Origin: a virus
IMG/VR virus record: IMGVR_UViG_3300040816_000681
Span: 1 to 26,402 of that record
Strand: one strand, 5' to 3'
Length of the DNA stretch: 26,402 bases
Both the position numbers and the translations under genes were made by a program. The notes below the pieces were generated by a model. That model saw nothing but the letters and a program-made list of their open reading frames with translations. It ran no database searches and had not been told where the DNA came from. Below are positions 9,086 through 17,758 of the stretch, in pieces (position 1 is the stretch's first letter; every line of letters begins with the position of its first letter).

Positions 9086-9643
9086 ATGGAACACTTTGTA
9101 AGAGTAATAATGGAAAAACAAGAAAAGGCAAGGCTAAGTGAATCAGTCTTTCCTATTTATGAGTCTTATACTACAGAACAAGATGTAACTGTTCTACAAA
9201 TTCCACTACCAGGCGAACTGTCAGAACAAGAATCAAACGAGTATGCAGAAAAATTAGCAAACTATATGTTTGAAGAAGGATACGAAGATTTTGATATTAT
9301 CATAGGCGAAGAGGATAATATTATTGAAGAAACCTATGATGACGATGATGAATTTTATGAGCAGTACGGTGTATTATGGTTTAACGAAGATGACGAAGTA
9401 GACGAAGCAGAGTACCAAGGACGCAAAGTTAAACTGGGTAAGCCTATGCAAGGTGATGTTAAAAAGTTTAAAGTATATGTTAAAAATCCAAAGGGTAATG
9501 TAGTAAAAGTTAACTTTGGTGATAAAAAATCTAGAATTAAAAAATCAAATCCAAAACGCCGTAAAAGTTTCCGTGCAAGACACAACTGCGATAACCCGGG
9601 TCCTAGACATAAGGCACGTTATTGGTCATGTAGGAAGTGGTAA
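9086..9643 (+). CDS. Acidic protein with basic Cys/Trp-containing C-terminal domain
   Basis: The 185-residue protein has a strong ribosome site (AAGGTAGG, 9074-9081). Residues 1-75 are an alpha/beta segment, and residues 75-105 are very acidic (EETYDDDDEFYEQYG). The last 75 residues are a separate basic domain: YQGRKVKLGKP, KFKVYVKNPKGNVVKVNFGD, then an Arg/Lys-rich tail with Cys in HNCDNPGPRHKARYWSCRKW. This tail domain recurs at the ends of otherwise unrelated marine T4-like phage proteins as I know them. The charge split suggests an assembly or DNA-contact protein. The N-terminus contains I-M-E at residues 8-10, a possible prohead protease site of the [LI]xE type. Confidence 0.78.
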   Translation: MEHFVRVIMEKQEKARLSESVFPIYESYTTEQDVTVLQIPLPGELSEQESNEYAEKLANYMFEEGYEDFDIIIGEEDNIIEETYDDDDEFYEQYGVLWFNEDDEVDEAEYQGRKVKLGKPMQGDVKKFKVYVKNPKGNVVKVNFGDKKSRIKKSNPKRRKSFRARHNCDNPGPRHKARYWSCRKW

Positions 9644-9644
9644 T

Positions 9645-9980
9645 ATGCGTATTAATGAATTTAGTCAACAACCTGAAAATAGATTCGATTATGATGTAGT
9701 AGATGATGTTTGTGCGTTTATGCGCAACGACCCTATTTTTTACAGAAAAAGTTTCTTTCCAGCAATCAGCAGAATAGCAGACTTACATAGAGAAGGTAAG
9801 TCTATTGATAAAAAACAATGTCTTGGACAAATGATAGAAAATGCTTTAGAAGCATATTGTAAACGTTTTGATGTTGCAGATATTCCTGATCAAATGTTCA
9901 ACGACAATGATAGAAACAGCATTATGGATAAGATATTCTCCGAAGAAATGGAACAAATCCAAAAAGGGGAATACAAGTGA
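9645..9980 (+). CDS. Conserved-looking 111-residue protein, unknown function
   Basis: I place the start at the ATG at 9645, two bases after the preceding stop, because an AGGAAG ribosome site lies at 9632-9637. The frame is open further upstream, but that part runs through the preceding gene. The protein is helical and acidic (VVDDVCAFMRNDPIFYRKSF, GQMIENALEAYCKRF, NSIMDKIFSEEMEQIQKG), with two cysteines and no membrane segment. It resembles short hypothetical proteins of cyanophages. The N-terminus MRINEFSQQPE contains I-N-E at residues 3-5 and resembles other leaders in this block. The next start (GTG) overlaps its stop by four bases. Confidence 0.78.
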   Translation: MRINEFSQQPENRFDYDVVDDVCAFMRNDPIFYRKSFFPAISRIADLHREGKSIDKKQCLGQMIENALEAYCKRFDVADIPDQMFNDNDRNSIMDKIFSEEMEQIQKGEYK

Positions 9981-10744
9981 GGCTAAGAGAATTATTTGAA
10001 GAAGCACCTGCGAAAAAAATTGTAGCAGTAATGCCAGGAGGATTTCATCCATTTCATCCTGGACACAAAAGTCTGTATGACTGGGCTGTAGAAACATTTG
10101 GAAAAGCAAATGTATACGTAGCAGCAACAGACGATACAAAAAGTCGACCTTTTCCGTTTGATGTAAAAATTAAACTAGCTGGAATGGCTGGCGTACCACA
10201 ACAAAGATTTATACAAGTTAAAAGTCCATTTAACGCACTATCTTATGATAATATCATAGGAGATGCATCACAGACTGCACTAATATTTGTACGAAGTGAA
10301 AAAGATAAATCAAGTCATCCTTTACCAGATCAAATTCGTAAAAGCGATGGCAATATGGGTTATCTAATATCGTACAAAGGAAATGATAATTTAGAAACAG
10401 CAGATACACACGGATATCTAGCATACGGTCCTACTATAGATTTTGACTTTAGCGGAATGGCTATTAATAGTGCAAGCCAACTTAGAGAAGCATGGCCAAC
10501 TATGTCTCCTGAGGATAAAATGAAAGCTGCTGAACTTATGTATCCTGGTAATGGACAAACCGCAGTGCAACTTCTAGATAAAGCACTAGGGGTAGAACCT
10601 GTGGCAGCAGAAGATGCACCTCCAGGCAGGGAAAAGCAAGTTAAAGCTCTTAAAAAGAAATTTGACGACCCAGGTGCTCCTTATGCTATAGCATGGGCGC
10701 AGCACAACAAACACGGCAAGCCGAGAAGGAAAAGCCGTGGATGA
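9977..10744 (+). CDS. HxGH nucleotidyltransferase with N-terminal leader
   Basis: The start is a GTG four bases inside the preceding gene. After a 14-residue leader (MRLRELFEEAPAKK) comes a Rossmann-like nucleotidyltransferase core: IVAVMPGGFHPFHPGHKSLY, with the HPGH nucleotide-binding signature at residues 27-30. This is the family of NMN adenylyltransferases, phosphopantetheine adenylyltransferases and glycerol-3-phosphate cytidylyltransferases; the substrate cannot be read from the sequence. The core ends near residue 165. The rest is a helical segment and a basic tail (KQVKALKKKFDDPGAPYAIA and KHGKPRRKSRG). The leader has two [LI]xE sites (L-R-E, L-F-E) like T4 head propeptides, suggesting a packaged enzyme. 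Confidence 0.85.
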   Translation: MRLRELFEEAPAKKIVAVMPGGFHPFHPGHKSLYDWAVETFGKANVYVAATDDTKSRPFPFDVKIKLAGMAGVPQQRFIQVKSPFNALSYDNIIGDASQTALIFVRSEKDKSSHPLPDQIRKSDGNMGYLISYKGNDNLETADTHGYLAYGPTIDFDFSGMAINSASQLREAWPTMSPEDKMKAAELMYPGNGQTAVQLLDKALGVEPVAAEDAPPGREKQVKALKKKFDDPGAPYAIAWAQHNKHGKPRRKSRG

Positions 10745-10961
10745 AATCGATTATCTAAAAAAACTAGCAGGTATAAACGAATTCCAAGGCTATAAGCCGT
10801 ATGAAGGATCTAATATATCTGTTACAGGCACAGAAAAAAAACAAATAGAACGTGAAAAAAATCTTCGCCCAGGTGATGAAGAATGGTTTAAACTTTGGTT
10901 TAGTCGTCCTTATTGGAAGGGACAAGAATATCCACCAGGATTAAGAGGCCGTAAAAAATGA
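10737..10961 (+). CDS. Small 74-residue protein, unknown function
   Basis: The start is a GTG at 10737, eight bases inside the preceding gene. Residues 1-20 are a helical leader (MDEIDYLKKLAGINEF). The rest is polar with a conserved-looking core, NLRPGDEEWFKLWFSRPYW, and a basic end (RGRKK). LKKLAGINEF-type starts and PGxxxWFKLWFxRPY-type cores occur in short proteins of marine T4-like phages, to my knowledge without an assigned role. There are no cysteines or membrane segments. Its end overlaps the SGNH hydrolase start by four bases. Confidence 0.7.
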   Translation: MDEIDYLKKLAGINEFQGYKPYEGSNISVTGTEKKQIEREKNLRPGDEEWFKLWFSRPYWKGQEYPPGLRGRKK

Positions 10962-11605
10962 AAATTTATACTTTTGGCTGTAGCTGGACATATGGCTGTA
11001 AAGGATGGAATTACAATGTTGCTAGTTGGGTAGAAAAACTAGCTGAAAAATATCCAAATAATGAAGTGATAGATTTTTCCTATCCAGGAACAAGTTTAGA
11101 ATGTAGCCTTTTTCATTTTGAAAAAGTATTAAAAGAAAAAGAAGAAAAAGATAAAACTGTTTTCCAATTTACAACTCCTTTTAGATATACGGCATGGCCT
11201 GATGAAGTATTTAATAGTCCTAAATTACGTTATAAAAAAACAAAAAATTACACAAAATTTATACCTGAGTTAAAAGATAAAATAGATAGATATCATCCTT
11301 CTGCAGATAATGCAGGTAACGGTATAAACAAAGATATGAAGTTTCATAAAATTTTTTATCGTAAACATAATAAAGAATTAGAACTATCAAAGTTTGATGC
11401 TTTGGCAACATACATACACAGTAAATCAGACTATGCATTTTTCCAGCGTCGAGATTACCCTGTTGCAACGCATGTTCCTGCAATAAATACAATTATAGGA
11501 GAAGATGCATATCAAAGTTACGTTTGGGATCAAGGACAACACTTTGACGATGCAGGATGTGATTGGCAAGCATCTTATATTGCAAAAGAGATAGGATTAT
11601 CATGA
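10958..11605 (+). CDS. SGNH/GDSL-like hydrolase
   Basis: The 215-residue protein starts MKIYTFGCSWTYG, a block I motif of the SGNH/GDSL hydrolase superfamily with candidate nucleophile Ser9. A likely block V lies near the C-terminus in VWDQGQHFDDAG, with Asp191 and His195. Spacing in that block is D-x-x-x-H rather than the usual D-x-x-H, so activity is probable but not certain. Between them are FSYPGTSLECSLFHFE (block II-like with Gly-Thr) and FQFTTPFRYTAW (block III-like). The family includes esterases and carbohydrate deacetylases; in phages these can trim surface polysaccharides. There is no signal peptide. It overlaps genes on both sides by four bases. Confidence 0.75.
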   Translation: MKIYTFGCSWTYGCKGWNYNVASWVEKLAEKYPNNEVIDFSYPGTSLECSLFHFEKVLKEKEEKDKTVFQFTTPFRYTAWPDEVFNSPKLRYKKTKNYTKFIPELKDKIDRYHPSADNAGNGINKDMKFHKIFYRKHNKELELSKFDALATYIHSKSDYAFFQRRDYPVATHVPAINTIIGEDAYQSYVWDQGQHFDDAGCDWQASYIAKEIGLS

Positions 11606-13338
11606 GAGGTAGTGATCTTTTAAAAGAATGGGGACGCATTGTAAAAGGCGTAAACACTACAGCAGATGTAGGTCCTGGAGAAATCAAAAAACAAGCAGCA
11701 AAATTTGGTAATACTGTAGACAAAGATGGTAAGCCGCCTACACTAAGTAAAAAAGTAAAAGGCTCTAAAACTAATGTGTTGTTTAATTTAGGACTAGCAG
11801 AAGGTATTATACTCCGTTTAGAACGAGACAAGCATATAGATGTCTTGCACATTATGGATACTAACAAAAAGCATCGTGTAGAAGTGCGTGGTAAAAAAGG
11901 CTATGAAAGTGGAAACTATGATGCACAAGATAAACTACATCAAGTATTAGATCGTGTAGGTAAAGCAGCAAATATAAGCGAACTTATCAACGGCGAAACT
12001 GTTAGTATTAATCCTAACCATCCACAAGGTACTCGTGCTATACGCACAGCAAAGGATGTATTACAAACTGAGGAAAAACGTTTTACGGAAATGGAATTAG
12101 CTTGCATAGAAGGCGGGCACGATTTAAATGATTTATACGAAAAAGCACCTGAGCCAAAACCAACAGGTGATTTGTTTAATGCGTTATCTGAAACATATAA
12201 TTCAAGAGATTCTCTTATAGAAGCTCTAGGAGAAATTGCTCCTAACACAGAAATTTATGTTGATATGGATGGAGTGCTTGCCGACTTCTTTGGGGAATGG
12301 TCAAAATCACAAGGCGTAGGCAATTGGAAAGATATTGAGAATCCTGCACAAGCAATAGGCGATATTAAAACAATTGACAACTTTTGGTTAAACTTACCTG
12401 TATTGCCACAAGCAACGCAGTTACTATCGTTAATAAAAAAAGTTAAAGGTAGATATAAAATATGCACAAGTCCACTTGCCGATGATCCTCGTAGTGAACC
12501 ACACAAACGTCAATGGGTTAAAGATAATCTAGATTTCTTCCCACCAGACGAAGTAATTGTTACACACAACAAACCACAATTTGCAACTCAAAAAGATGGA
12601 ACACCTAACATACTAATAGACGACTACGGTGTTAATATTAATGCTTGGGAAGAAGCAGGCGGTATTGGTTTTAAGTATAAGGATCATAAATTTGAAAGAA
12701 CAGCAAAGGCATTACAACAACATGTACAAGAGCCTGTTGAAAATTATACAAGAGATCAACTTCCGCAGATCCGTCAAAAGAATTTAAAAAATATTCGTCA
12801 TACAATAGAAACTATTGCAATAAAGGATATAATACCTGTACAAAAAGAACGTATTATAGAAAACTTTAAACGTCAAGTTGATAGAATTGTTGCTGGAAAA
12901 TATACTCCTATTATAGTTGATTGTAATAATAAAATTGTAAATGGTCACCATAGATACACAGCATTAGAAATGCTAGGCTATGATAAGGTAGAAGTAGCAA
13001 AATTACCTTTAACTATCAAACAAATTGTAGAAAACTTTGCTGATGACCAAAGAGAGAAAACAAAACGTACACTTGCCAAACACGACAAAGCAATGATTAA
13101 AGTAGCTCGTGATTCTATTAAGAAGTACGAGAAAGACAAAGAAGATAAAGAAACTAATGAAAACTTTGCTGATGGTAAGAAAAAAGGCAAAAGCAGACCT
13201 GGACGAGTAAAGAAGTCAGGTGCTAGTTGTAATGGTAGTGTAACCAGTTTACGTAAAAAAGCAAAAAAGGCCAGCGGCGAACGTGCTAAAATGTACCACT
13301 GGTGTGCAAACATGAAGGCAGGTAGAAAGAAGAAGTAA
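11602..13338 (+). CDS. Multidomain protein: unknown N-domain, HAD phosphatase, ParB-like domain, basic tail
   Basis: I start at the ATG at 11602 (ATGA overlap with the preceding stop), giving 578 residues. Residues 1-150 are unrecognised. Residues about 217-370 are a HAD-like 5'-nucleotidase: YVDMDGVLADFFGEW with Asp221 and Asp223, ICTSP as motif II, and LIDDYGVNINAWEEAGG as the metal motif. Residues about 405-475 resemble ParB/sulfiredoxin-type nuclease folds (YTPIIVDCNNKIVNGHHRYT, with the GHHR signature). Residues 535-578 are a basic tail with Cys and HWC (KKASGERAKMYHWCANMKAG). The mix suggests a nucleotide- or DNA-handling protein. The N-terminus has L-K-E at residues 7-9, consistent with prohead packaging and cleavage. 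Confidence 0.8.
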   Translation: MRGSDLLKEWGRIVKGVNTTADVGPGEIKKQAAKFGNTVDKDGKPPTLSKKVKGSKTNVLFNLGLAEGIILRLERDKHIDVLHIMDTNKKHRVEVRGKKGYESGNYDAQDKLHQVLDRVGKAANISELINGETVSINPNHPQGTRAIRTAKDVLQTEEKRFTEMELACIEGGHDLNDLYEKAPEPKPTGDLFNALSETYNSRDSLIEALGEIAPNTEIYVDMDGVLADFFGEWSKSQGVGNWKDIENPAQAIGDIKTIDNFWLNLPVLPQATQLLSLIKKVKGRYKICTSPLADDPRSEPHKRQWVKDNLDFFPPDEVIVTHNKPQFATQKDGTPNILIDDYGVNINAWEEAGGIGFKYKDHKFERTAKALQQHVQEPVENYTRDQLPQIRQKNLKNIRHTIETIAIKDIIPVQKERIIENFKRQVDRIVAGKYTPIIVDCNNKIVNGHHRYTALEMLGYDKVEVAKLPLTIKQIVENFADDQREKTKRTLAKHDKAMIKVARDSIKKYEKDKEDKETNENFADGKKKGKSRPGRVKKSGASCNGSVTSLRKKAKKASGERAKMYHWCANMKAGRKKK

Positions 13339-13443
13339 ATGGACATAAGTCATTACGTTGAAAAGTTAAAAGAGCATGAAGCAAAAAGGCTAAGTACTAA
13401 TGAACGTAACAAGTATTGGAGGAAATACAATGAAAATAACTGA
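13339..13443 (+). CDS. 34-residue charged mini-protein
   Basis: A short frame starting at the first base after the preceding stop, with a purine-rich AGAAGAAG stretch just before the ATG. The product begins MDISHYVEKLKEHEAKRLS and is one very polar helix rich in Lys, Glu and Arg. It overlaps the next ATG by 14 bases. The tight fit between two genes and the amphipathic composition argue for a real gene, but size alone makes this uncertain. No function can be proposed. Confidence 0.45.
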   Translation: MDISHYVEKLKEHEAKRLSTNERNKYWRKYNENN

Positions 13444-13681
13444 ACTACTAGAAAGAGAAGGCTATTGTTCGGATAAATGCTGCGGTGCTGATGTAAAAGC
13501 TGCGGATTGTACCTGTGGCCCAGACTGCCCACATTGTACATGCAACGCTGTTAAAGAAACATTTACAGCAGGATCTGTAGCATCTAATAGTGCTGCTGGG
13601 TTTGCAAATGGTGGCATAGGCACATTAAGTCGTGCTCCAGGAACTAAAAAGAAAAAACGCAACAAGAACATGTCTAACTGA
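13430..13681 (+). CDS. Cys-rich, metallothionein-like mini-protein with leader
   Basis: I choose the ATG at 13430 because GGAGG lies at an ideal distance; an in-frame ATG at 13400 lacks one. The 83-residue product has three parts. Residues 1-10 are a leader, MKITELLERE, with I-T-E and L-L-E sites. Residues 13-38 hold eight cysteines (13, 17, 18, 27, 29, 33, 36, 38) and one His in CSDKCCGADVKAAD and CTCGPDCPHCTC, a density typical of metallothioneins. Residues 46-83 are a Gly/Ala/Ser-rich stretch ending in a poly-basic tail (GTKKKKRNKN). Binding of zinc, copper or similar soft metals is likely. A redox or zinc-finger role is possible. It is probably cytoplasmic or virion-borne. Confidence 0.8.
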   Translation: MKITELLEREGYCSDKCCGADVKAADCTCGPDCPHCTCNAVKETFTAGSVASNSAAGFANGGIGTLSRAPGTKKKKRNKNMSN

Positions 13682-13704
13682 TAAATACGTTATACATGTA
13701 TTTA
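13680..13704 (+). promoter_or_regulatory. Late-promoter-like motif GATAAATA within a small hairpin
   Basis: GATAAATA at 13680-13687, followed by C, matches the T4-like late -10 element. The same bases form the left arm of a stem, TAAATACGT (13682-13690) against ATGTATTTA (13696-13704), nine pairs including one G-U with a five-base loop. The stem ends one base before the CGGAG ribosome site of the next gene (ATG 13717). A transcript from the motif would start near 13693 and lack the left arm. Confidence 0.45.
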
Positions 13705-13716
13705 CGGAGCAATTTC

Positions 13717-14058
13717 ATGAGAAAAGACGAATTTAAAGAAGGTTTAGGAGATTTAGCTGCAAAAGCAGAAATGGATCACGAAGTTCAAATGGCCAGAGCT
13801 GACCTTTATAAAATTGCCAAATATGCTATAAAGTTACACGATATGATGAAATCAGTAAGTGAAGCTGAAGGGCTAGAAGGATGGCAACAGGCTAAAATTA
13901 CAAAAGCAGCTGATTATTTAGGTAGTGTATATCATAATTTAGATTATGAAACAAAGTTTGGAAATGGCGAAAATGCCGAACTAGAAATGCCTACTGAATC
14001 AACATACAAAGAAAAGTTAAACACAGTTTTAGAAAAAAAATTATCTAAAAGTGCATAA
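13717..14058 (+). CDS. Conserved-looking 113-residue helical protein
   Basis: I place the start at 13717 because GGAG (13706-13709) sits seven bases before it; an in-frame ATG at 13696 lies in the hairpin and has no ribosome site. The protein is almost all helix and charged: DEFKEGLGDLAAKAEMDHEV, then ARADLYKIAKYAIKLHDMMK, then GWQQAKITKAADYLGSVYHN. There are no cysteines or membrane segments. This helical core is familiar from hypothetical proteins shared by many marine T4-like phages; I know no assigned role. Its place among leader-bearing proteins would fit a head-internal or scaffold-associated protein, but that is a guess. Confidence 0.8.
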   Translation: MRKDEFKEGLGDLAAKAEMDHEVQMARADLYKIAKYAIKLHDMMKSVSEAEGLEGWQQAKITKAADYLGSVYHNLDYETKFGNGENAELEMPTESTYKEKLNTVLEKKLSKSA

Positions 14059-14069
14059 GGTTATAATGA

Positions 14070-17024
14070 ATGCACAAGTCAACTATTCTTGAAGCAATTA
14101 CTGTATCTAACAGATTACGCGACTACATAGACGGCCGATTTGATCAATACGGTGACGCGATGTGGGGCGGCCTTGCACTACGAATAATAGAATATGTTGA
14201 TTATAATTACGACTTTGAACGAGCTGCATACACTGCAAGTGTAATAGCAGAACGTACTAATCTATCATATCTTGTTTTTAGACTTAACAATAATGTTTAC
14301 ATCGTATCAGCAGAAAGAAATGACGGCAATGAACCAATCACACTAGAAAGATCTCGCTCTGTTGAAGATTCTGTGTATATTAATGCAATAACAGAACAAG
14401 CAGATAAAGAAATGCTCCCTCCGTATCTTGTTAGTTTGTGGAGACAAGAACTACAAAATAAAGACGATAGAGATGAAATTGAAGAAGCTGAATTAACAGC
14501 AGCCAACGTACAACATAATAGAAGATACGGTAATCCGAGCGTCGAAGTTACTGTTAATACCACTGATAGTGAGGAGGAAAAACTACCTCCAGTGAATGTT
14601 CCAGATGATGGTCCGCTTGCTAGATTTGCAAGATCTGAAAAAGGTGGATTATTTGATGATCCGGATGAAGAAGATGCTATACGCGAACTACAAACTATAT
14701 TAGTTGATTTAGGATTAGATGTAGGAGGCACAGGTGTTGACGGAAGATATGGCCCAAGAACAACTCAAGCAGTTAAAGACTTTCAACAAGCAGCGACTGA
14801 ACATTTAGGATATGATTTACTTAATAGTAACGGTCGACCAGACGGTGATGCTGGGCCAAAAACAATACCTGCACTAATAGAAGTAAGAAGAGATTTAGCA
14901 GAAATACAGCGTTTAGTTCTTGAAGTATCTAGAGAACAAACTAATGATAGTGTATATATAGATTTAGAAAAAAGTCTAAACATGCTCTTTGAAAAAGAGT
15001 TGTATGAAGATGATAGATCGGATCTACAATCCTTAGTTGATAAGTATACAGGCTTTTTACAACAATTTCCAAACGCAGAAATAAACCGCAGTGTAGAAGG
15101 TACTCCATCTATAATTAATCGAGCTAGACAAGTTCTAGATCTAGGAACTAATGATAACGAAGTAGATAATACAATTAACATTGACACATATCAAGTTGCT
15201 TCTGCAGAAAGACAAGATGCACTAGAAGGTGATCTTAGAAATAAAATATTACTTACTTCTGAAAGCGGTCCTGACCTATATATAGATAGAAGTTCACCTA
15301 TGGATCACACAGTTGAATATACCGTAGGCACAGACGGTGATAAACAATCAGCAGAATTTCCTGATGCATTACTAGATGATATTGATGCAGAAGTTGGGCG
15401 TAGAGGTCCTGAAGATACTTCAAATCAAAATATAGCTAATGTAGAAAATGTTGTGCAGAATCTTAGCGCAGAAGGTGTCGTTATAACGCCAGAAATGCTA
15501 GAAGGTGTAAGCAATGAAGACTTACTAGAAATAATTAGGAATCTATACCAACAAGCAGAGCCTTTAGTAAGAAAACAATTAAACAATAGCATCGAACACA
15601 TTGATTTAAACAACTTATACGAAGCACTTATTACTGAAGAAATTTCAGGACAGGAAGCTGTAGAATTACAAAGACTAGTTAGGAATCTACAACTTTTACG
15701 AGATCGTTATTATAATAATCAAGGTGATATGACAGATAATGATATTATTGATCTAGATACTTTGTTGCAAAATAATGTTCCAGATGTATTTAAAGGTGAT
15801 GACGATATTGATCCTGCAACATGGAATCAAGCCCCAGTTGATCCTAATGAAGGATTTGAAGAATTTACTGGTGGAAATCCTCCTGAAGGCTATAAGTTAT
15901 ATATTAAGCGAGGCAATCCAGCTGTATATCGTTGGGGGAGGGGTGAAGAAATAAACCCTCAAGATTACGACACTTATATGGCTGCTCAAGAGGCAGCTAA
16001 CGCAGATGCAGCAGAAAATGCTCCACAAGGAACACAATGGCCTGAACCATATGTTTTAGAAGATGGTTCGTGGCCTGAAGAGTTTCAAAATACAAATGGA
16101 ATAATAAGAGGTTCTGATATAGTAACGTTTGCCGGTGTTGACGCTAATGTTAGATGGATTTTATTAGTTGACACTAGAGTTTTACGTAGAGTAACAGATA
16201 TTAATATTACAGATGACAGAAGATACTTTAATGTACGTTTAAGAAATACATCACCTATTGCAGATTACAATGAACAAACTATAAGTTTAGCTGATTATGA
16301 TAATCTTACGATAGCATTATTAGACTTACCTGGATTTGAAGAAATTGATCCTGCAGATTATGGTAATGATATTACAGATAATATATTAGCATATTGGAAA
16401 ACATACAAAGACATTAATGAAACAGACAGGTTTTTAGATGCTACAGATATATCACAATTTGATTTAGGTGAATTGCGTGAAGTAAAGTCTTACTTTGAAG
16501 CATTAATTAATGCCATGCGACAGGAAAGCAGAAACCTTACTATTAATGGTATAACAAGACCGGCACCTACTGGCAGACCTATAGATGCACAAAGTATTGT
16601 TAAGATAGAAGATTATATTAGAAACACAATTGATGCTGCTATACAACAAAAAGAAAGCGAAGAAGAAGAACTAGCAGCAGCTGAAAGACAACAACGCGAA
16701 CAACAAAAAGCTAACAACTTATTACAACTACTTAGCGGTAGAACTAGTGCATCTGAACACAGGCAAATAGAATCTATTATATTAGATATAAGCACTGCGG
16801 AAGAATATAATCGTATAGATACGCTGTTTAAAAACTTACCAGATAATAGAGGTAAAGATGATCTATTTACATGGTTTAATAGTGAAGGTTTAGGAATAGG
16901 ATTTATACGTCACGATATGACTAGAATTAGAAACCATTTAAGTTCTATAGGTGTTAATATACAAGAACTAAACGAAGTATCACAAATGCTACAAAGGTTA
17001 AATAGTATACTAGGAGTTAACTAA
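14070..17024 (+). CDS. 984-residue protein with peptidoglycan-binding domain
   Basis: The largest gene here. Residues 1-150 are alpha/beta with N-terminus MHKSTILEAITVS (I-L-E at 6-8). An acidic linker follows (DSEEEKLPPVNVPDDGP). Residues about 202-272 are a type 1 peptidoglycan-binding domain (AIRELQTILVDLGLDVGG, DGRYGPRTTQAVKDFQQ, GPKTIPALIEV). The remaining 700 residues are very acidic, Asn/Asp/Gln-rich and repetitive in texture. Around 580-680 is a Pro/Gly-rich stretch (NPPEGYKLYIKRGNPAVYRW), and around 855-890 a likely coiled coil (QQKESEEEELAAAERQQREQ). No lytic domain is evident. Size, acidity and a cell-wall-binding module suggest a virion protein acting at entry or an internal head protein. 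Confidence 0.8.
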   Translation: MHKSTILEAITVSNRLRDYIDGRFDQYGDAMWGGLALRIIEYVDYNYDFERAAYTASVIAERTNLSYLVFRLNNNVYIVSAERNDGNEPITLERSRSVEDSVYINAITEQADKEMLPPYLVSLWRQELQNKDDRDEIEEAELTAANVQHNRRYGNPSVEVTVNTTDSEEEKLPPVNVPDDGPLARFARSEKGGLFDDPDEEDAIRELQTILVDLGLDVGGTGVDGRYGPRTTQAVKDFQQAATEHLGYDLLNSNGRPDGDAGPKTIPALIEVRRDLAEIQRLVLEVSREQTNDSVYIDLEKSLNMLFEKELYEDDRSDLQSLVDKYTGFLQQFPNAEINRSVEGTPSIINRARQVLDLGTNDNEVDNTINIDTYQVASAERQDALEGDLRNKILLTSESGPDLYIDRSSPMDHTVEYTVGTDGDKQSAEFPDALLDDIDAEVGRRGPEDTSNQNIANVENVVQNLSAEGVVITPEMLEGVSNEDLLEIIRNLYQQAEPLVRKQLNNSIEHIDLNNLYEALITEEISGQEAVELQRLVRNLQLLRDRYYNNQGDMTDNDIIDLDTLLQNNVPDVFKGDDDIDPATWNQAPVDPNEGFEEFTGGNPPEGYKLYIKRGNPAVYRWGRGEEINPQDYDTYMAAQEAANADAAENAPQGTQWPEPYVLEDGSWPEEFQNTNGIIRGSDIVTFAGVDANVRWILLVDTRVLRRVTDINITDDRRYFNVRLRNTSPIADYNEQTISLADYDNLTIALLDLPGFEEIDPADYGNDITDNILAYWKTYKDINETDRFLDATDISQFDLGELREVKSYFEALINAMRQESRNLTINGITRPAPTGRPIDAQSIVKIEDYIRNTIDAAIQQKESEEEELAAAERQQREQQKANNLLQLLSGRTSASEHRQIESIILDISTAEEYNRIDTLFKNLPDNRGKDDLFTWFNSEGLGIGFIRHDMTRIRNHLSSIGVNIQELNEVSQMLQRLNSILGVN

Positions 17025-17758
17025 TGCAAGTTATGCAAATTATAAAAGAAGATGAAGTTGTTAGGGTAAGAAACAGTAGAGAACTTGCTAGAGCATTTGA
17101 TGATACAGCAGACGGCGGGTATCAATGGACAAGAATTGCAAACTATTTTGCTGTTCAGCGCCAAAGAAGTCTTGGCGAAAATAGAGGACAGATAAATGGC
17201 AGGATGTCACGTATACACACTGATATCGGAAAAGACATGCCTGAACAACTTACAACTACTACTTGGAATCTAAGAGCAAGAAGCTATGGGATGGATACTC
17301 CGCAAGATCGTCCTACTTGGCAGGATATATACAATCACTTAGCTCCACACGCTAACTATGCATTACCTGAAGGTTGGGAAATACCTGGAACAGCACAGGG
17401 TGCAGGAACAAGTTCTAATAGTACTCCAGAATTGAATATTGAAGTTGGAGCTTGGATTGACACTGAAAGAACATCATGGGATAATGCAGATGAATTACGT
17501 AGTGAGTATCTTTCTCCATGGCTACAGCACGTACAGAATTTACGCGGTGAAGATTGGAGTACCTGGTTAGCAGCTCGTGGTAGTGACGGGGAAAGAAATA
17601 ATAATAACTTTTTATTTTATAAAAATCTTAGTAGAGTAGTTTTTCCTAGGATAATTTCAGGCGACGGTGAAATATCAAAAGGGGCAGTAGATCAAAGACT
17701 TTATAACTGGCTTGTAAGAGCAGACATGTCATTCCAAAATTATAGAGAAGCAAATTAA
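17024..17758 (+). CDS. Unrecognised 244-residue Trp-rich protein
   Basis: The ATG overlaps the preceding stop by one base (TAATG), so it is coupled to the 984-residue protein. The N-terminus MQVMQIIKEDEVVRVRN contains I-K-E at residues 7-9. The body is polar with many Trp and Arg residues (YQWTRIANYFAVQRQRSLGE, TTWNLRARSYGMDTPQ, EDWSTWLAARGSDGERNNN) and a low-complexity Gly/Ser/Thr linker near residue 130. There is no cysteine, signal peptide or membrane segment. The C-terminal third is helical. I do not recognise it; tight coupling with its neighbour suggests they work in the same structure. Confidence 0.75.
   Translation: MQVMQIIKEDEVVRVRNSRELARAFDDTADGGYQWTRIANYFAVQRQRSLGENRGQINGRMSRIHTDIGKDMPEQLTTTTWNLRARSYGMDTPQDRPTWQDIYNHLAPHANYALPEGWEIPGTAQGAGTSSNSTPELNIEVGAWIDTERTSWDNADELRSEYLSPWLQHVQNLRGEDWSTWLAARGSDGERNNNNFLFYKNLSRVVFPRIISGDGEISKGAVDQRLYNWLVRADMSFQNYREAN

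Follow-up and report, generated by a model that had tools for sequence, protein, structure and literature searches.

In phage T4 the prohead protease gp21 cuts after L/I-X-E, and the first ten residues of the internal protein IPIII suffice for packaging; targeting is influenced by residues 4 and 7, processing by residues 8 and 10 (PMC9026906). The leaders read from the T4 record, with a slash at the cut, are MKTYQEFIAE/A in IPII and IPIII and MKTFKEFTSTTTPVSTITE/A in IPI, together with MELITELFDE in Alt, MAKINELLRE in gp24 and MAIFQIINE in gp2. The ejection proteins of phiKZ-type phages (SPN3US, phiKZ) are similar in that many head propeptides are removed after a Glu by the prohead protease, but the cut motif is S/A-x-E (PMC9026906), not L/I-x-E, and the cargo is different. 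The cyanophages S-CREM2, S-SZBM1 and S-SCSM1 share with the locus described here a homologous nucleotidyltransferase, a T4-type leader and a similar cassette, and no packaging leader is named in the available parts of the cyanophage virion papers. Within the limited collection of literature searched, capsid-targeting sequences had not been described for cyanophages.

The window analysed here, which is the whole stretch of DNA, is a complete IMG/VR record of 26,402 bases and represents part of a T4-like marine phage genome. Its T4-like genes include those of a family-B DNA polymerase and of DnaJ- and Clp-like proteins. Being a fragment, it has no prohead protease or capsid gene of its own. When the window was compared at the nucleotide level to annotated phages, nothing matched. 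The original prediction was that seven neighbouring genes, named here by their start positions (9086, 9645, 9977, 11602, 13430, 14070 and 17024), begin with short leaders ending in [LI]xE, like those of T4 proteins injected with the DNA. All seven were found in their places when the sequence was read again. Of the conditions set to refute the prediction, none that lent itself to a check was fulfilled.

We believe, with a probability of roughly 0.85, that the block constitutes a cassette of cargo proteins packaged in the head, targeted by the leaders, trimmed by the protease and ejected with the DNA, where core binding, cleavage and ejection are inferred for this phage. The leader, about 5–19 residues ending in [LI]xE, would bind the cargo to the prohead core, and the gp21-type protease that matures the prohead would also trim the leaders. 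The cargo would then be unattached among the DNA and leave the head together with it when a cell is infected. Its bodies would be interchangeable modules: the nucleotidyltransferase, the 5'-nucleotidase/ParB-like protein and the large acidic protein, as well as Cys-rich and basic domains. The capsid junction and arm copied in some cargo of relatives would probably act as a second docking or cutting signal. A cluster of genes in abundant marine phages, most of them annotated as hypothetical, would thereby be predicted to encode proteins that enter the host right at the onset of infection, and packaged proteins could be predicted from sequence by means of the leader.

As in T4 IPI–IPIII and Alt, unrelated cargo has in common a short N-terminal leader with hydrophobic residues followed by [LI]xE, and single leaders resemble those of T4: MKITELLERE of 13430 that of gp24 (MAKINELLRE), MQVMQIIKED of 17024 that of gp2 (MAIFQIINES), and MRLRELFEEA of 9977 that of Alt (MELITELFDE). 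The cargo bodies, however, are other than those of the T4 internal proteins, and the block has M[KR][ILF]xE[LIF]xE instead of MKTYQEFIAE. The dense cassette, the shuffling of modules and the capsid junction/arm copies in some proteins also distinguish it from T4. The leaders vary more in length than in T4, with the Glu at residue 5, 8, 9 or 10; several sites, at residues 5–9, lie below the T4-type range of about 10–19, and in gene 9086 the Glu of one site is at 10 and that of another at 19. The pattern numbered after IPIII, with hydrophobic or aromatic residues at 4 and 7 and processing residues at 8 and 10, fits 9086 and the cyanophage homologues, and the other window leaders are shifted by 1–2 residues.

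Clustering and conservation of the motif

[LI]xE within the first 12 residues was found in 7/10 genes of the block as compared to 3/27 outside it (Fisher P=0.001, own gene call). Counted over the whole window, 10 N-termini matched and 3.6 did so after shuffling (P=0.002), an enrichment that agrees with the original prediction. The start codons come partly from our own gene caller, which matched the annotated starts of 158/185 and 203/239 genes in two cyanophages, and this limits the analysis. About 10% of any 12-residue stretches match the motif, which means that the motif alone cannot identify cargo. Genome-wide, the counts against shuffles were 25 vs 17.8 in C48C1 and 28 vs 18.4 in HTVC008M, and clustering of the loose motif was not significant in these two. 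The whole genomes of S-CREM2 and S-SCSM1 showed no clear excess over shuffled N-termini. As a stand-alone test, the genome-wide count of the loose motif was rejected because the background is too high.

This background, and the weak genome-wide enrichment, could mean that [LI]xE is merely frequent at N-termini and that the cluster is a coincidence. Genes 412 and 3750, outside the block, are matches of exactly that kind. They had been suspected of matching by chance, and as the motif is not conserved in their homologues (33% and 12%, respectively) they were rejected as cargo. Against coincidence speaks that another genome, G001 (a relative of 156 kb and the contig of locus L020), shows the same cluster. 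Out of 154 genes it has 21 with the motif (13.5 in shuffles), and 9/12 consecutive genes at 21.3–30.4 kb carry it, a clustering reached in 0/5000 permutations. The G001 cluster corresponds to the block, with homologues of 9086, 9645, 9977 and 13717. The remaining motif genes include the protease, the next gene (the scaffold by its position) and the major capsid protein, which are all expected substrates. The gp21-family protease was found in G001 and is annotated in C48C1 and HTVC008M.

Conservation in the families of the block, far above what shuffling gives, also makes coincidence very improbable. When the proteins of 81 records were clustered by their bodies, with the first 14 residues excluded, 40 families had at least 5 members, and only 6/40 retained [LI]xE in at least 60% of the members. 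All six come from this block: the families of 9977 (97%), a small protein (82%), 9645 (82%), a 379-residue protein (67%), 11602 (62%) and a CWKGY-domain protein (62%), where shuffling gives 8–15%. In no family of a window gene outside the block does the share exceed 33%. The six share a leader of approximately M[KR][ILF]xE[LIF]xE attached to unrelated bodies, and their leader similarity was 4.9, compared to -2.6 for other family pairs, which was not reached in any of 5000 random six-family sets. The latter test is partly circular, since the six families were chosen by the motif. The bodies are shuffled among relatives, and the same domains occur alone, fused or with different leaders. The alignment of homologues thus bore out that leaders are conserved and common to unrelated families, and as far as sequence comparison goes conservation is better evidence than a motif count, as it separates signal from chance.

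Leaders and domains of the block genes

The case is strongest for gene 9977 (9977..10741, + strand, GTG start), which encodes an NMNAT/cytidylyltransferase-like nucleotidyltransferase with an HxGH motif. The leader MRLRELFE/EA precedes the catalytic domain, where Pfam CTP_transf_like matches from residue 19, below the cut-off. The leader motif is retained in its 38 homologues at the rate given above, as compared to 8–11% expected by shuffling. One guess is that the nucleotidyltransferase might replenish NAD or nucleotides at an early stage of infection. Unlike the cyanophage NMNAT, the enzyme belongs to a phage of a distinct marine lineage and is shorter, 255 residues.

Good support was also obtained for 9645, 11602, 13430 and 9086. 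Gene 9645 (9645..9977, +), with the leader MRINE/F, has 49 homologues, in which the Glu is mostly at residue 5 or 6 (11% expected by shuffling for the motif). The 9086 leader MEHFVRVIME/K (9086..9115, +) has F4, V7, I8 and E10 in the spacing of T4 IPIII. The proposed I-M-E is present in the window and E10 is invariant, but most homologues have V-M-E, and with V at P3 the residue-10 site was rejected as a strict L/I site. A second predicted cut site, L-S-E19/S20 (9116..9142, +), is comparable to the [LI]xE at residue 19 of T4 IPI. In the 13 homologues, positions 3 to 40 hold no more than four invariant residues, E10, K11, E19 and S20. In C48C1 the homologue begins MKKFKQYIDE/G, a textbook T4 leader. 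The C-terminal basic domain of 9086 (..RRKSFRARHNCDNPGPRHKARYWSCRKW; 9395..9640, +) matches phrog_7595 (E=4e-10) and is also present in pelagiphages and C48C1.

Gene 11602 (11602..13335, +) encodes a multi-domain protein with the leader MRGSDLLKE/W, followed by a GRIVKGVNTT module ending in NLGLAE, a 5'-nucleotidase (NT5C/HAD), a ParB-like domain and a basic C-terminus. NT5C is above the Pfam cut-off, and PHROGs of ParB-like proteins and deoxyribonucleotidases match. Its leader motif was counted in 16 homologues, with 8% expected by shuffling. There is a possible internal cut site at L-A-E67/G (11794..11802, +), where NLG[LM][AST]E is found in 19/22 distinct contexts, and another at N-E520/NFADG, followed by the basic module KSRPGRVKKSGASC.. 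(13153..13335, +). The basic module E/NFADGKxKGKSRPGRVK, at 13162-13335 in the window, is found again at the C-terminus of block proteins of many kinds. A Glu precedes NFADG in 39/40 contexts, and the module may be released as a separate peptide.

The Cys-rich protein 13430 (13430..13678, +) has the leader MKITELLE/RE, and a relative (L032) begins MKISELLEE ahead of a similar Cys-rich domain. Two further genes, beyond the seven, have related but weaker sites. The small protein 10737 (10737..10958, +) has a possible site LAG[IV]NE15/F, LAGINE15 in the window, that is conserved in its homologues. In 13717 (13717..14055, +) a GLGDLAxKAExDHEVQMARADLY domain follows FKE8/G, with a conserved xE/GL junction, and its profile matches the virion-detected S-SCSM1_29 (E=3e-7). 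It is possible that both are cargo. Gene 10958, also in the block, has no leader.

Support is thin for the last two genes, whose leaders are only weakly supported because there are almost no homologues. A search for homologues of both in viral contigs returned one record only, identical to the window. Gene 14070 (14070..17021, +; leader MHKSTILE/A) encodes an acidic protein of 984 residues (pI 4.3) with a peptidoglycan-binding domain (PG_binding_1, above the cut-off); a relative (L004, 36% identity) begins MKISTLLEFA, and there are few others. For 17024 (17024..17755, +; leader MQVMQIIKE/D) the single distant relative (L014, 24% identity) begins MNVFDIIIE/Q.

Homologues in cyanophage virions

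Published virion mass spectrometry lists, as far as these sources were available, were mapped onto the genomes of S-CREM2, S-SCSM1 and S-SZBM1 (PMC10665884, PMC9146016, PMC9602691). The profile of the 9977 family finds one cytidylyltransferase/NMNAT in each, S-CREM2_154 (MKNFSSFLTE/A), S-SCSM1_91 (MKSFLQFLKE/A) and S-SZBM1_140 (MRFRQFIIE/A), and all three had been detected in virions. Without proteomics of the window phage itself, the evidence on presence in virions comes from the homologues of 9977, detected in 3/3 cyanophages and carrying T4-type leaders. Cytidyltransferases of S-ShM2 (MKKFSTFISE/A), P-SSM7 (MKKFSAFLTE/A) and ACG-2014d (MKKFSDFLSE/A) follow the pattern MKKFS[TAD]F[IL][ST]E/A.

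In S-CREM2 strict T4 geometry is found in six proteins, five of which were detected, as compared to 52/219 overall (P=0.003); the leader geometry of S-CREM2_154 recurs in the virion SAM hydrolase, an APH-like kinase and two unknown proteins. With the three proteomes pooled, 6/11 strict-leader proteins were detected vs 130/719 (P=0.007), and those not detected include two in S-SZBM1, one in S-SCSM1 and one in S-CREM2. Both P values are somewhat optimistic, since the strict pattern was written after the S-CREM2 leaders had been seen.

These detections would be uninformative on packaging if they merely reflected late proteins that were carried over because of their abundance. For S-CREM2 and S-SCSM1 the authors mention it as a possibility that non-structural proteins in the spectra are carry-over (PMC10665884, PMC9602691), and the papers leave the choice between packaging and carry-over of the enzymes unresolved. 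The cytidylyltransferases were also detected by few peptides, 3 in S-CREM2 and 2 in S-SZBM1. Carry-over is nevertheless an unlikely explanation, as strict-leader proteins are overrepresented both in S-CREM2 and in the pooled set, and nearly all replication proteins went undetected. The leader on virion-detected enzymes supports packaging over carry-over, and packaging would offer a mechanism for the presence of nucleotidyltransferases, a kinase and a SAM hydrolase in the particles, a puzzle of cyanophage proteomics.

Two uncharacterised S-SZBM1 proteins, S-SZBM1_191 and _192 (L106:22311-23125), have near-perfect T4 leaders, MKSFKSFLSES and MKTFKQYITEA, and are absent from the published virion list. 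In the virion-detected Cas9-like gp12 of S-CREM2 (L100:7704-10313), PLRFASFMAEA is found at residues 16–26, with a CTG codon at 17. It is possible, and not shown, that this is a leader behind an alternative start codon.

Copies of the capsid-protein junction and arm

In G001 and its relatives the major capsid protein reads ..ENTRKYLxE/[STAP]ATAGATSAGN[VI]ATL.., and [LI]xE is present at this junction, as YLxE or YINE, in 34/34 G001-type capsid proteins read. It falls at the cut position of T4 gp23, whose mature form in the PDB comprises 456/521 residues, i.e. it is cut after LTE65 (FLTE65). The junction is FLTE in T4 and C48C1, and FLGE in HTVC008M. For the window's lineage a protease specificity of [LI]xE is inferred, from sequences only.

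A profile of the 14-residue capsid arm alone, with the Glu left out, finds 16 other proteins, all in the block about 3–5.5 kb downstream of the 9086 homologue. The Glu is exactly at the cut position (P1) in 16/16 copies, and the control gave one match among three times as many shuffled sequences. It is conceivable that the leaders are real shared signals that are never cut, and instead dock the proteins to a replication, late-transcription or membrane complex. Cleavage is only predicted, and the cassette adjoins replication genes in the window and sits between gp41 and gp61 in cyanophages. Docking of this kind would not explain the fixed Glu at a capsid-type junction or the invariant E10 and E19 in the 9086 homologues; moreover, the geometry equals that of T4 leaders with a known packaging function, and leader-bearing homologues are detected in virions. 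We regard docking as improbable, and head-packaged cargo remains the preferred reading.

In T4-like marine phage cargo, the copied junction would be cut by the same protease, and the arm thus exposed might dock the cargo on the inner capsid surface or replace the arm of the capsid protein. The copies suggest such a second signal for packaging or assembly, for which we know of no precedent in T4, but the idea is tentative and its chances are slightly less than even. Gene 13430 has a degenerate junction and arm copy, VKE/TFTAGSVASNSAAGFANGGIGTLSR (13550..13633, +), recognised by eye only, with family members such as L013 (KE/TTTAGSVASVATPVGGLVSR) as reference; the arm profile missed it at E<=2. 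No gp23-arm copy was found in the T4 regions searched, and none that was convincing in S-SZBM1, C48C1 or HTVC008M.

The virion-detected S-CREM2 160 and S-SCSM1 97 copy the cyanophage-type arm (E=2.5e-9 and 6e-7), and so do cassette proteins of S-ShM2 (L195:36492-37352), P-SSM7 (L196:38683-39264) and ACG-2014d (L197:40018-40845). RefSeq gives the last three and S-SCSM1_97 (L110:13121-13306) the name 'major head protein', to which the copied arm apparently led; in length and context they are unlike capsid proteins. The arm scores separate two lineages that each fit their own arm type, [ST]ATAGATSAGNVATL in the window's group and AVGxGGFxGxxATGPVAGFDP in cyanophages. Among cyanophages a copy need not fit the arm of its own phage best: that of P-SSM7 fits other cyanophage arms better than its own.

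A K/P-rich tail with NALDMKxxxLxGGKxxKR is a frequent ending of the arm-copy proteins of relatives (L093:8711-8884, which is G001:28711, L034:7503, L005:16471, L010:8124 and others). For S-SCSM1_97, an upstream in-frame ATG gives MDKTDRVIQLIRE/MIAVGAGGF, with an I-R-E site before the arm copy, and the annotated start may be too late.
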